Source of the DNA: Rhodocaloribacter litoris
Lineage (GTDB): Bacteria; Bacteroidota; Rhodothermia; Rhodothermales; ISCAR-4553
Length of the DNA stretch: 64,000 nt
Reading direction: 5' to 3'
Assembly: GCF_011682235.2 (NCBI RefSeq)
Contig: NZ_CP076718.1
Coordinates: 3,830,400 to 3,894,399, forward strand
The first letter of the stretch is position 1; every line of letters starts with the position of its first letter. Position numbers and translations under genes: made by a program. The notes below the pieces were generated by a model. It searched no databases, had not been told where the DNA came from, and worked only from the letters and a program-made list of their open reading frames with translations. This document shows, in pieces, positions 18,537 through 41,528 of this stretch.

Positions 18537-20630
18537 TCACCTTCTCTCGGAGAGCCGGTTCAGGAAAGCCCGGGCGTGGGTGTTACCGGGGTCGAGTTCG
18601 AGCACTTTCTCGAACATCTGACGGGCTTCGCGGGGCCGGCCGGCCTGCAGGTAGACGAGGCCCAGGCTGCCGTAGCCGGCCGGATGGTCCGGTGCCGCCA
18701 CGATGGCCCGGTAGAACTGGGCCGCCGCCTCGTCCAGCTCGTTCCGGGCCAGATGGAAGGACCCCAGCTGGATGAACGCGTCGGCCAGGTCCGGGTCGAG
18801 CCGGGCGGCTTCGGCGAAGGCCTGTGCGGCGTCGTCGGGGCGGCGGGCTTCGAGGTAGAGCAACCCCAGGTTGTACCAGGCCTTCGGGCGATGCACCGGG
18901 TCGAGTCGGACGACGGTTTCCAGCCGGGAGCGGGCCTGTTCCTTGAACCCGGCTTTCAGGAGGGCGTCGGCGAGCTTGACCTGTGCCTCGATGAGTTTCG
19001 GCTGGAGGGCGACGGCCCGTTCGTAGGCGGCGATGGCGGCGTCTTCCCGGCCGCGTGCCTCCAGGACGGCGCCGTGCCAGAAGTGGACCCAGGCGTGCTC
19101 CGGGTAGGCCCGGGCGGCGTCGTCCAGGACGCGGGCGGCAGCTTCGAGAGAGTCGATCTCGGCCAGTGCACGCCCCAGGGCGATGCGTGCCTCGACGTGG
19201 TCGGCACCCGCCCGGAAGCCGCGCCGGGCATAGAGCCGCACGGAGTCCAGGTAGGCCGGAACCCGGTGCATCGTTTCGTAGAAGTCGAAGTAGGCGATGG
19301 CCGTCTCCAGGTCAGTCGCCGGTGTGCGGCGGGTGCGCGGGATGAGGAGATGCTCGCTCCGGTCGGCTTCGAGCAGGGCCGTCAGGCGCAGGGGCGCGGG
19401 GCTGTCGAAGGCGGGGCGGGCGGTCGCGGGATCCCGGGGCGGTCCGGGTCGCCGGCGGATCCAGTGGTCGGTGAAGACCACGTGGGGCACGTTGGTGGTG
19501 CCGCCCTGCTGCATGTGGCACCCGACGCAGTTGCCCGAAGCGGCCCGGGCGGGCGCGTCGGCCTCCGGCCGGGTGCAGATGGCCTCGTGACCGGCATCGT
19601 GGCACTGGAGGCAGGCGCGGTTGTAGTGGTCGGGGGGGAGCAGGGCTTTCGGCCGGTGCGGGTCGTGACAGGTCGTGCAGGTCATCGCGCTCTGCCGGTA
19701 GCAGGCGCTCTTCGCCAGCCGCACCGGATGGGAGTCGATCCCGACGGCTTCCGGGTCGGTCAGCTCCGTTTCCGGGACGAAAACGGTGCGGTGTGCGGCC
19801 AGCGGCGTCCCGGGGCGGTAGGTGGTCGGGTCCTCGCCGGGCTTGAAGACGAGCACACCGGCCAGATGGCACTGCAGGCAGGTTGAGAGCTGCCCGCCCC
19901 GGTCGAGGTGGGCGGGGTTGACGATGGTGGGATCGGGCGTGCCGGGCTCCGCCGGGGCTGCCTCGCGCCACCGGGCGACGTGGCGCGAGGCCGGGCCGTG
20001 GCACCGCTCGCACGTGATGCCCGTCGGCACCTCGGTGTAGTGGTTCTGGGTGAAGGGGGTGTGGGTCACCGGCCCGTTATGGCAGGTGATGCAGGCCACG
20101 TTGATCTGGCGTTCGAACCGGTCGTTGGCTTCGGCATAGCCCGGGCTCATGTCCCATCGCCCGGCATGGACGTACCACGTCAGCGGCATCTCGGTCAGGT
20201 AGCCGTTCACCTCCATGAGGTAGGAGCGGGTCGCGTTGCCCGAGCCGATGACGTAGGCAGCGGCGTGTGCGCGCTCGTGCAGGACGTTGCCGTCCGCGTC
20301 GGTGCGAAGCTCGCGCTGGTAGAGGGTGTCCTGCCGGACGAAGGCCTCGTAGGCCAGGCGGGAGGCGGGATGTGGCACGCGGGTGCCGTCGAAGCGCTCG
20401 GGTGCCGCGGCCGGGTCGAAGCGTGCGACGGAACGGGCCTTGTTCGTCCGGGCATAGGCCGCCGCGATGTCCGGATGGCAGGACGCACAGGCGGCATCGC
20501 CCACGTAGGCGCCGCCGGCAGGCAGGGACGCCGGCGTCGTCGGAGCCGGGGGGGGCACCGGATCGCCGGGGGTGCAGCCCGGGGGCCACAGCAGGGCCAG
20601 AAGGAGGACGAAACCGGATAAACGACCCAT
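18537..20630 (-). CDS. Seven-haem c-type cytochrome fused to TPR repeats (lipoprotein)
   Basis: The 697-residue protein starts MGRLSGFVLLLALLWPPGC, a signal peptide with a lipobox-like PPGC. Seven CXXCH haem sites follow: CASCH, CITCH, CERCH, CLQCH, CTTCH, CLQCH and CVGCH, all in the first ~420 residues. The C-terminal ~270 residues are tandem TPR repeats (ALAEIDSLEAAARVLDDAAR, AWYNLGLLYLEARRPDDAAQ, GYGSLGLVYLQAGRPREARQ). The haem domain resembles cytochrome c554/NrfA-like multihaem proteins. It is probably a periplasmic or surface electron carrier or a reductase-like enzyme held in a larger complex by the TPR. No cytochrome maturation or quinol oxidase gene is adjacent. Confidence 0.88.
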   Translation of the reverse strand: MGRLSGFVLLLALLWPPGCTPGDPVPPPAPTTPASLPAGGAYVGDAACASCHPDIAAAYARTNKARSVARFDPAAAPERFDGTRVPHPASRLAYEAFVRQDTLYQRELRTDADGNVLHERAHAAAYVIGSGNATRSYLMEVNGYLTEMPLTWYVHAGRWDMSPGYAEANDRFERQINVACITCHNGPVTHTPFTQNHYTEVPTGITCERCHGPASRHVARWREAAPAEPGTPDPTIVNPAHLDRGGQLSTCLQCHLAGVLVFKPGEDPTTYRPGTPLAAHRTVFVPETELTDPEAVGIDSHPVRLAKSACYRQSAMTCTTCHDPHRPKALLPPDHYNRACLQCHDAGHEAICTRPEADAPARAASGNCVGCHMQQGGTTNVPHVVFTDHWIRRRPGPPRDPATARPAFDSPAPLRLTALLEADRSEHLLIPRTRRTPATDLETAIAYFDFYETMHRVPAYLDSVRLYARRGFRAGADHVEARIALGRALAEIDSLEAAARVLDDAARAYPEHAWVHFWHGAVLEARGREDAAIAAYERAVALQPKLIEAQVKLADALLKAGFKEQARSRLETVVRLDPVHRPKAWYNLGLLYLEARRPDDAAQAFAEAARLDPDLADAFIQLGSFHLARNELDEAAAQFYRAIVAAPDHPAGYGSLGLVYLQAGRPREARQMFEKVLELDPGNTHARAFLNRLSERR

Positions 20631-20789
20631 GGCGGTGAGAGAAAGGCACAACGACCCCGCCAATCTAACCTTTGCAGGGTGTCTTCCACAAACGAAACCG
20701 GAGGCATCACCGGGTCGGGGCAGGGTGCGCCGGAAGCCCGCGTTCCGTATTTTCTGATCCCCACCGGTCGTCATCGTTCAGAACCCGCC

Positions 20790-21965
20790 ATGCTCGACTT
20801 TCATCGCCTGCAATCCCAGCTTGCCGACTTCAGCGCGTACCAGACCCGGGAGGCGGCGCTGACGGCCTCGCGGTTGCGACGGGCGCTGGCGGCGCTGGAA
20901 GCGTGCCGCCCGGCGTGGGAGGGGCTGCGGGAGAAGGTGGCCGCCGCCCGTCCGAAGTGGCTCGTGGCCGGCCTGCGGGCCGATCCGGGCGGGGTGCACC
21001 ACTGCGGTCCCCGCCCCACCCCGGTGACCGTCGTCGCCACCGACGGCTCCCAGATCTTCCCCGATCGTCACGTGGAGCCGACGTGTTACCTGCTCAACGT
21101 CAGCCGGATCGCCTTTCAGTACGGCACCCGCGAGCGCCCGCTGATGGAAGCCGTGCCCGTGTTCCGCTACCGCCGCACCGAGCTCGACGCGCTCGAAGAC
21201 CCGCTCCTGGACGGCGCCACGGCCGAGGTCGTCTCTGCCCTCCGCGACGAGATCGAGCTGCGCGAGCTGCTGGATACCGCGAAGGCCGCGCGCCTGCCAG
21301 GCCGGCCGCTGGTCGCCCTGGCCGACGGGACGCTCATCCGCTGGATGATCCGGCGCATGCAGAACCGCGCGCTCGAGGCGCAACTCATCGAACGCTACAC
21401 CGAAATTCTGAGCGGTTTCCGGGACGAGGGCCTGCCCCTGTGCTCCTACATCAGCATGCCCGCCAACACCGAGGTGGTCAATCTGCTGCGCCTCTTTCTC
21501 GACGAACCCGAGGAGACAGGCGATGGGACAACGCCGCCGGACCCCGAACAGACCCTCGCCGGGCTGACCGACCGGCGCCTCTTCGAGGCCGTGCTGCCGC
21601 CCGGAGCCCGCTCGGCCACGTTCGAGTCGGCCTCGCACATCCAGCGCGAATACGGGGAGGACCGCATCTGCTATTTCTACCTCCACGTGCCCCTGCCCGG
21701 CGGCGGAGAGATCGGCCGGGTGGAGATCCCCTGCTGGGTGGCCGACGACGAGCGCCTCGTGGACCTCGTTCACGCCGTCGTGCTCAGCGAGTGCGAGAAG
21801 GGGAACGGCTACCCCATGATCCTTTCGGAAGCCCACGAACGCGCCGTCATCCGGGCCCAGGAGAAGGCGCTGTTCTATGAGCTGATCGAGCGCGAGATGC
21901 GGGGGAAAGGGCTCTCGTACGCCGGTTCGCGCAAGCAGGCCTCGAAGCGGCGGCCGGTCGTGTGA
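20790..21965 (+). CDS. nurA: NurA-domain nuclease
   Basis: The 391-residue protein matches the NurA fold, an RNase H-like 5'-3' nuclease that works with the HerA translocase on DNA ends. Key acidic motifs are ATDGSQIFPDRH (Asp 85), VALADGTLI (Asp 179) and, near the C-terminus, EIPCWVADDERL; these fit the catalytic carboxylates. I start at MLDFHRLQSQL because upstream residues are not family-like. A HAS-barrel gene follows 69 bases later on the same strand, and a HerA-type ATPase is encoded at 39870-41528. It diverges from the cytochrome gene across about 160 bases. Confidence 0.88.
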   Translation: MLDFHRLQSQLADFSAYQTREAALTASRLRRALAALEACRPAWEGLREKVAAARPKWLVAGLRADPGGVHHCGPRPTPVTVVATDGSQIFPDRHVEPTCYLLNVSRIAFQYGTRERPLMEAVPVFRYRRTELDALEDPLLDGATAEVVSALRDEIELRELLDTAKAARLPGRPLVALADGTLIRWMIRRMQNRALEAQLIERYTEILSGFRDEGLPLCSYISMPANTEVVNLLRLFLDEPEETGDGTTPPDPEQTLAGLTDRRLFEAVLPPGARSATFESASHIQREYGEDRICYFYLHVPLPGGGEIGRVEIPCWVADDERLVDLVHAVVLSECEKGNGYPMILSEAHERAVIRAQEKALFYELIEREMRGKGLSYAGSRKQASKRRPVV

Positions 21966-22034
21966 GGGAACGGCGCTTTTCCGCCCCGTCTTCATGGTCC
22001 GCCCCCGGTTCGTGCGTGTATATTTCGGGCGCTG

Positions 22035-22655
22035 GTGGGATCAAGGCAGCAGATCGACGTGGAAAACAGGCTCGGCGAAGTGATCGCTTCGAACACCCGG
22101 TCGTGGGAGGCCGAGGTCTACCGGGAGGCGGAAGCTCCGGCGTTCGGGGCCTGGGTGAAGGTGGCCCATCCGGGCGGGACGGTGCTCTACGGGGTCGTGA
22201 GCCACGTCGAGATCGGCAGCTACGAGCCGCACCGGCGCGCCGTGGCCTTCGGGATGACGCCGGAGGAACTCGAGCGGGAGATGCCGCAGGTGCTGGCGCT
22301 GTTGCGCACCACGTTCCGGACCCAGGTGCTCGCCCACCGCGATGCACGGGGCCGGCTCCGCCAGACCTTCCCGCCGCATCCGGCACCCATCCACGGCTTC
22401 GTCCAGGCCTGCACGGCCGACGAGGTGCGGGCGCTCGGCCCGCCGTTCGATTACCTCCGCACCCTCATCCAGAGCCCCGACCCCGCCGTGCCGGTGGACG
22501 ACCTCGTCGTGGCCGTCCTGCGCGGTCGCTACGACGCCTTCGGCGAGGGCCCCGACGGCGAAGCCGACCTCATCGCCGCCGGACGGGTGCTCAGCCGCCT
22601 CCTGGACGACGACCACGAACGCCTCCAGTCCATCCTCCGCCGCATCGTGGACTGA
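22035..22655 (+). CDS. Stand-alone HAS-barrel-domain protein, NurA partner candidate
   Basis: The ~206-residue product starts at GTG 22035, or at a second GTG at 22059; neither has a strong ribosome site. The N-terminal ~65 residues (LGEVIASNTRSWEAEVY, FGAWVKVAHPGGTVLYGVVS) look like a HAS-barrel, the small beta-barrel found at the N-terminus of HerA and of ATP synthase alpha/beta subunits. The remainder (AFGMTPEELEREMPQVLALL, PFDYLRTLIQ, AAGRVLSRLLDDDHERLQSI) resembles a protein family I recall from cyanobacteria. Its position right after nurA suggests it docks NurA or DNA to the HerA machine. The HAS call is from pattern memory, not a search. Confidence 0.65.
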   Translation: MGSRQQIDVENRLGEVIASNTRSWEAEVYREAEAPAFGAWVKVAHPGGTVLYGVVSHVEIGSYEPHRRAVAFGMTPEELEREMPQVLALLRTTFRTQVLAHRDARGRLRQTFPPHPAPIHGFVQACTADEVRALGPPFDYLRTLIQSPDPAVPVDDLVVAVLRGRYDAFGEGPDGEADLIAAGRVLSRLLDDDHERLQSILRRIVD

Positions 22656-39814: not shown

Positions 39815-39870
39815 GCGTTTCGCGTTGCACGTTTCGCGTTCAACATTCAACGCACCAACGTTCAACGCAT
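39815..39870. repeat. CGTTGCACGTTGAA-type repeat cluster
   Basis: Between the convergent aldo/keto reductase and herA stops lies GCGTTTCGCGTTGCACGTTT followed by several CGTTCAAC-type units. It is the complementary form of the repeat at 57741 and reaches the herA stop codon. Confidence 0.7.
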
Positions 39871-41528
39871 CAGAACAGGTCGCTGATTTCCGAACGGGCC
39901 TCTTTGAAGGAGCGGGGGGCATCGTCGCCGCGCAGAGCCCGGTAGAAGGCCTCGTCGTAGGAGCGGGTGCGGATGACCACCGGCATCGGCACGGCGTGGC
40001 CGAGGACGAGCGCCTGCTGCCGCGAGTCGAGCGAGGCCAGCACCTGCCGGAGCGAGGACGCTCCGCTGACGCCCACGAGGGCGGCGCCGATGTCCTTCTC
40101 GTCGTTGAGCTGGGCGATGATCTTCGTGCCGATCTGGCTGAGCACCTCCTCGTCGATGGCGCTCGGCCGCTGGTCCACCACCAGGAGCGAGACGAAGAAC
40201 TTGCGCATCTCGCGGGCGATCTTGCCGAAGGGCGTCTCGTGCGCGATGCCCGGCGCCAGGAATTTGTGCGCTTCTTCGATGGTGATGATGAGCGGCCGGG
40301 GGGCGTCGGCTTCGTTGCGCGTCTGCAGGTAGTGCAGGGTCTTCTCCTCGTAGCGGTCGCGCAGGCGCCGCGTGATGACGTTGGCCACGAGCAGGTAGAC
40401 GCGCAGGTCGTCGAACTTGCCGAACTCGAAGACGACCGACTTGCCGGCGTCGAGCGTTTCCATCAGGTCCTCGATCACGTCCTGCCTGCCGGCCGAGGGC
40501 TCGGTGCGGAAGAAGTCGTAGCCCTCGAAGACGCGGAGCTTGCGTTGCAGCGCGGCGACGGCGTTCTCGTGCGCCCCGCACGCTTCGGCGATGTCGGCCG
40601 GGTCGCCGTCGAGAAGGGTCGTCAGCCATTGCCGGCCGAAGCGGTTCTGGAGGGCGTAGGTGCTCTCGGCGGCGGTGGCCGTCAGGTTGAGCGTGTCGCG
40701 CAGCGGGAGGATGTCGCCGGGTTCGATCTGGTCGGCGTAGAGGTAGACCTCGCAGTCGGGCGAGACGCCGGTACGCTTGCGGGTGCCGGCCGGGTCGAGG
40801 GAGAAGATCTGCACCCGGGCGGGGAACAGGTCGCGCAGGCCGCGCACGAAGCCGCCTCCCTCTTTACGGGCGCTGAGGCCGTACTCCGAGTGCATGTCGA
40901 AGATGAGGTTGACGGCGCGGCCCGTCTGGATGGTGCCGGCCAGGAGCAGGCGCGTGATGAACGTCTTGCCGGTGCCGGTCTTGCCGAAGACGGCGTTCGA
41001 GCGCTCGACGAAGCGCTGCAGGTCCAGGCACACCGGGATGCCGTCCATCCCCAGCGGCTCGCCGATGTGGAAGTAGACCTGCCGGCCCTCGTCGTCCCGG
41101 TTGGCTTCGTGCCCGAAGACACGGGCCACGTCTTCCTCAGTCGCCCGGGCCACCACGGAAAAGTGGGCCGGGACGGTTTTGACGGGCCGCACCTCGGCGA
41201 ACTCTGCGTTCACCCGGTTCTCCATCATGAGCATCGGCCGGAGGGTGACCGTGGCGTAGGTCCCCGTACCCTGCAGGATGCGCCGGAGCAGGTGCGCGCG
41301 CACCGGGGGGGGATGGAGCAGGATGTCCTCGTTGGCGGCGTCGATGGTCACGTCCGTGATCATCGAGAAGAAGTCGTACCGCTGGCCCTGGATGACCACG
41401 AACGTGCCGGCGACCACGCTTTCGATGGACTCGGCCGGGTCCAGCTTCATCTCCACGCCCTTGTTCAGGGAGCCGTGCGTGATGATGCCGATCTTGTCGG
41501 GCCGGTCGTTGGGCTGGAGGGCTTGCAT
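39870..41528 (-). CDS. herA: HerA-type hexameric DNA translocase ATPase
   Basis: The 552-residue protein opens with a HAS-barrel (about 10-80, PDKIGIITHGSLNKGVEMKL, FVVIQGQRYDFFSMITDV). A FtsK/HerA ATPase domain follows, with Walker A GKTGTGKT (182-189) and Walker B LIITIEEAHKFLAP (Glu418-Glu419). HerA pumps DNA through a hexamer and works with NurA to resect ends. The nurA gene of this window lies 18 kb away on the other strand rather than adjacent as in archaea. The start at MQALQPNDRP matches the HAS-barrel beginning; upstream in-frame residues are not conserved-looking. Confidence 0.9.
   Translation of the reverse strand: MQALQPNDRPDKIGIITHGSLNKGVEMKLDPAESIESVVAGTFVVIQGQRYDFFSMITDVTIDAANEDILLHPPPVRAHLLRRILQGTGTYATVTLRPMLMMENRVNAEFAEVRPVKTVPAHFSVVARATEEDVARVFGHEANRDDEGRQVYFHIGEPLGMDGIPVCLDLQRFVERSNAVFGKTGTGKTFITRLLLAGTIQTGRAVNLIFDMHSEYGLSARKEGGGFVRGLRDLFPARVQIFSLDPAGTRKRTGVSPDCEVYLYADQIEPGDILPLRDTLNLTATAAESTYALQNRFGRQWLTTLLDGDPADIAEACGAHENAVAALQRKLRVFEGYDFFRTEPSAGRQDVIEDLMETLDAGKSVVFEFGKFDDLRVYLLVANVITRRLRDRYEEKTLHYLQTRNEADAPRPLIITIEEAHKFLAPGIAHETPFGKIAREMRKFFVSLLVVDQRPSAIDEEVLSQIGTKIIAQLNDEKDIGAALVGVSGASSLRQVLASLDSRQQALVLGHAVPMPVVIRTRSYDEAFYRALRGDDAPRSFKEARSEISDLF

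Follow-up and report, generated by a model that had tools for sequence, protein, structure and literature searches.

Do some bacteria supplement NurA and HerA, which are described as a two-protein machine, with a third protein? The question is raised by a locus of Rhodocaloribacter litoris (assembly GCF_011682235.2, contig NZ_CP076718.1, forward strand, positions 3,830,400 to 3,894,399), a stretch of 64,000 nt called the window below. In this window, nurA is followed on the same strand by a gene encoding a small protein, and herA lies approximately 18 kb away on the opposite strand. The original prediction for this DNA held that the small protein starts with a HAS-barrel, as HerA does, and that it could be an adaptor that docks NurA, or a substitute for the HerA barrel in a fraction of the hexamers, within a three-component arrangement. 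The three genes are the following:

20790-21965, + strand: nurA, NurA-family nuclease of 391 aa (PF09376, E = 4.6e-24; invariant D85, E156, D179 and H349)
22059-22655, + strand: small protein of 198 aa, HAS-barrel at the N-terminus, helical at the C-terminus; proposed third component (start from alignment, PF09378, AlphaFold2, Foldseek)
39870-41528, - strand: herA, complete HerA-type DNA translocase of 552 aa with its own N-terminal HAS-barrel (DUF87, Walker A, HAS-barrel, Foldseek)

Both predicted partners were recovered. NurA matches PF09376 with 85.7 bits (cut-off 21) over positions 2-254 of 254, i.e., the full-length domain, and its four invariant residues, conserved in an alignment of 20 relatives, are those we take to be the acidic and histidine active-site residues of NurA, with a presumably catalytic role. 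The divergent neighbour of nurA (18537-20774, - strand) encodes a protein rich in CxxCH haem motifs, with TPR-like repeats after them. HerA presents a DUF87 ATPase domain (E = 1.4e-31), and its orthologues share an invariant Walker A motif TGTGK at 184-188 and the acidic pair E418-E419 in the alignment; its model retrieved the Thermococcus HerA-NurA complex with Foldseek (E = 9.4e-26). PF09378, the HAS-barrel profile, is matched by 24 of 28 HerA orthologues, the window HerA itself reaching only E = 0.01, and barrel strands are present at the N-terminus of the window HerA model.

The gene of the small protein had been placed 69 bases after nurA. An ORF at 22035-22655 indeed exists on the same strand at this distance from the nurA stop, but its start is more likely the GTG at 22059, which yields 198 aa and leaves 93 bases after nurA, because the alignments with relatives begin only at ORF residues 7-13 (mostly 9-13) and the start codons of the nearest relatives fall near residue 9. 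A start at 22035 is possible, but relatives give it no support. The family is kept at 34-77% identity in two classes and the small protein is therefore not a chance ORF. Two regions can be distinguished:

22068-22412, + strand: HAS-barrel-like domain, about residues 4-118 (DSSP on the model, alignment)
22413-22652, + strand: acidic helical C-terminal region, about residues 119-198 (secondary structure of the model, invariant residues)

The AlphaFold2 model, built with 47 relatives (mean pLDDT 95.2, pTM 0.89), contains the expected barrel fold, with six strands within residues 4-117 (4-11, 15-20, 32-36, 42-54, 82-94 and 114-117 according to DSSP) and two short helices, followed by a helical C-terminus. 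The match to PF09378 holds for the family, with 23 of 26 members recognised (best E = 8.3e-8), and not for the window protein alone, which scores 20.3 bits (E = 6e-4), under the curated Pfam cut-off of 25.2. All of the top 50 Foldseek matches of the model in the PDB are HerA-type ATPases, the best being the Thermococcus HerA-NurA complex (E = 4.6e-7), and Deinococcus HerA and TdpAB are among them. The predicted structure thus confirms the N-terminal HAS-barrel, whose invariant residues in the alignment are E7, G30, R59, E74, P76, P105 and H112. Where HerA has its ATPase domain, the small protein has an acidic helical region (pI 4.44) with invariant R134, D147, D184, D185, R188, L189 and R195; a P-loop ATPase domain is absent from this protein of 198 aa, which has a helical C-terminus and no ATPase match. 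The small protein matched none of the PADLOC or NCBIfam models and nothing under E = 0.001 in a viral fold library, and none of its relatives was found on plasmids or in viral contigs.

How close is this barrel to that of HerA? The first 140 residues of the HerA model, where pLDDT is about 50-85, show the same order of strands and helices as the small protein; past the barrel, the models continue into the ATPase domain in HerA and into helices in the small protein. HMM and profile-profile comparisons of the HerA N-terminus with the small protein gave a similarity not above that of shuffled or reversed controls. The kinship of both proteins hence rests on Pfam and on fold, and any common origin of the barrels should be old. 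A motif common to both that had been spotted by eye, T-x-P with the following helix, was dropped since controls did equally well.

Of 395 genomes surveyed in the phylum, 33 encode the small protein, a weak match in G014 being excluded as a fragment with a stop, unconfirmed by profile. NurA occurs in 37 genomes, namely 32 of these 33, G339 and four others. The exception among the 33 is G281, the barrel gene of which lies 2 kb from a contig end. G339, only 81% complete, has NurA and an orthologue of HerA with no small protein counted. One of the four others, G106, which has G052 as a close relative and lacks the triad, carries a defence-like locus (L073, 155-3821) in which the gene of a different NurA (455 aa) neighbours those of a DNA methylase and a short HerA-type ATPase. 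An orthologue of the window HerA (about 50-75% identity) is present in all 33 small-protein genomes and in G339. On the other side, 20 genomes of the same order without the small protein encode neither NurA (0/20) nor orthologous HerA (0/20), with weak partial ATPase matches at most, and a more sensitive profile search detected no small protein in them. Fisher tests for this co-occurrence (p = 1e-40 and 1e-12) ignore kinship, are inflated by related genomes and are descriptive only. In an unrooted RpoB tree of 58 genomes, the state of the triad changes at least six times, and within the order the whole triad is missing from three separate groups, each next to relatives in which it is complete. 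Such joint absence next to triad keepers argues for one functional unit. The partnership of the small protein, NurA and HerA is thus well supported, the original three-component idea gains in strength, and the joint keeping and loss in Rhodothermales and Chlorobiales relatives points to an unrecognised third part of a DNA repair machine.

All members of the family found by a scan of 84,980 species genomes, made with one C-terminal motif that may miss more distant relatives elsewhere, come from records that name Rhodothermia, Rhodothermales or one of their genera, Bacteroidetes/Bacteroidota, or Chlorobiales-like bacteria in the title. After correction for RpoB, the evolutionary distances of the small protein among 22 genomes follow those of NurA (partial r = 0.44) more closely than those of HerA (0.26), values that lack a null from unrelated proteins and lend weak support.

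The linkage with nurA is not confined to this genome and recurs among Rhodothermales and Chlorobiales-like bacteria. In 25 of 32 genomes, from two classes, the barrel gene follows nurA in the same orientation at a distance of no more than about 3 kb: 14 pairs are adjacent or nearly so, two are separated by about 2.4 kb and nine, all Chlorobiales-like, by about 2 kb. In two Chlorobiales-like loci (L060, 7988-9994; L063, 7926-9974), the space is taken by one lipoprotein-like gene of about 670-680 aa. The nurA stop and the barrel gene start overlap by four bases in L055, and in L061 the barrel gene start overlaps the preceding gene by four bases. Both genes are apart in the remaining seven genomes, and herA lies away from both in every genome. 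In one genome, an intact barrel gene is accompanied by another copy with a frameshift (G127:C61:8005-8572, L195).

What could the triad do? A search of long ORFs for a PDDEXK nuclease domain of AddAB/RecB type found it in 20 of 20 triad-less genomes of the order, whereas only 10 of the 23 genomes of the order with the triad have it and the Chlorobiales-like ones with the triad all lack it. The window genome itself has only a 189-aa match to this nuclease, two UvrD-type helicases and no AddA-like helicase. Every tested genome of the order has the triad or AddAB, the pattern to be expected from a triad that processes DNA ends, although a few AddAB calls may change (G227 shows a weak helicase match in a frame of 1358 aa, and G251 a weak nuclease match). 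Independent pairs on the tree show a trend in the same direction and are too few for significance. In one genus, AddAB-type genes are present in three genomes (G046, G054 and G151) and absent from two triad keepers (G003 and G008). The distribution of AddAB between triad-less and triad genomes suggests a role of the triad in DNA-end resection.

Since a stand-alone barrel of HerA type is made beside NurA, the small protein most simply binds NurA. We give about an even chance to a three-part system in which it serves as adaptor or regulatory subunit, attached to NurA by its HerA-like barrel. The HAS-barrels of Deinococcus HerA make up the exit pore as well as the face that carries the NurA dimer, each NurA contacting four barrels (PMC9960219). 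By analogy with the published NurA-HerA pairs, HerA would here be a hexameric translocase and NurA a nuclease docked on its HAS-barrel ring. The small protein, presumably a HerA-like barrel without the motor made next to NurA, would bind NurA through its HerA-like surface and hand it to the HerA ring or position it there, its helical C-terminal region providing an extra contact, and the trio would be used in double-strand-break resection. The barrel fold, the linkage to nurA and the joint presence or loss with nurA and herA were observed here; the docking of NurA on HerA barrels is carried over from the known pairs. More tentatively, the whole may be a three-protein resection machine restricted to Rhodothermia and Chlorobia, in which a motor-less copy of the HerA docking barrel connects the NurA dimer to the HerA ring as a separate adaptor. 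The NurA-HerA systems of Deinococcus and archaea are reported to work as two proteins, which counts against a third subunit, and the lack of linkage in 7 of 32 genomes likewise speaks against an adaptor.

Other readings of the small protein are less probable. It might mimic the docking face of HerA and keep a potentially harmful NurA inactive until HerA displaces it, which would fit a barrel that is HerA-like by fold, encoded with nurA and not with herA, in a protein whose closest rate tracking is with NurA. We nevertheless consider this unlikely, as the need for such an inhibitor is not known in other NurA-HerA systems, the invariant C-terminal residues hint at more than a decoy, and nurA and the barrel gene stand apart in seven genomes. 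Alternatively, barrel and helices might act outside the ring, binding DNA or another repair factor and recruiting NurA-HerA to breaks. Joint presence and loss would fit any member of the pathway, and the HAS-type barrels of BrxHI were proposed as DNA-binding modules (PMC12839542), but the C-terminal region, being acidic, is unlike a typical DNA-binding tail and no DNA-binding signature was found in the small protein, which makes such a role quite improbable. A mixed ring, in which the small protein would stand in for some of the barrels or subunits of HerA, was raised in the original prediction and agrees with the same strand order in both models. It is very unlikely, given that a subunit lacking the ATPase would disrupt the ATP sites that adjoining HerA subunits form between them (PMC9960219) and that similarity to HerA's own barrel is below detection in sequence. 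Finally, mere co-inheritance of three functionally unconnected genes in one lineage, for which one may invoke the relatedness of the genomes, the unlinked herA and the few independent contrasts of an unrooted RpoB tree, is hardly credible when all three are absent together in three separate groups adjoining groups that keep all three and when nurA and the barrel gene sit close together in both classes.

If the adaptor or regulatory reading is right, a conserved third protein resembling the HerA docking face would imply that the docking of NurA is regulated or mediated in these bacteria. G339 apart, every genome with triad-type NurA and HerA, in either of the two classes, also has the small protein, suggesting that these bacteria, many of them without AddAB or RecBCD, may rely on the trio for trimming broken DNA ends. 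Cultured thermophiles exist among the relatives of Rhodothermus, and their proteins suit biochemistry. NurA, HerA and HAS-barrels were already known; no description of a stand-alone HAS-barrel partner of NurA was found in the open-access literature searched, and the original FtsK-HerA survey, that of Iyer et al. in 2004, may mention related solos.

NurA and HerA are both encoded in the window genome and co-inherited across the survey, and they may form a 2:6 complex with resection activity. Among the closest known systems, the end-resection complex of Deinococcus radiodurans (PDB 7F6D), reported from bacteria without RecBCD, similarly combines NurA with a HerA bearing an N-terminal HAS-barrel, the barrel ring being the docking face of NurA (PMC9960219). 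Its two components are encoded in one operon, whereas the window has herA at a distance from nurA and pairs nurA with the gene of a stand-alone barrel protein. The archaeal HerA-NurA systems provide the best fold matches of the HerA model and of the small protein (Sulfolobus HerA, 4D2I; Thermococcus, 9X1M), but a separate barrel protein is not described for them; in most hyperthermophilic archaea, nurA and herA are reported to be linked to rad50-mre11 (PMC2288612). The defence complexes HerA-SIR2, HerA-DUF4297 and TdpAB also associate a HerA-type ATPase ring with an effector and are among the fold matches. Unlike them, NurA and the small protein match no PADLOC model, no gene of the defence kind was seen among the immediate neighbours, and the triad is stable within whole genome families. 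BrxHI shares with the small protein a HAS-type barrel outside HerA (PMC12839542), but this barrel is one domain of a large helicase, whereas here it forms a stand-alone protein linked to NurA.
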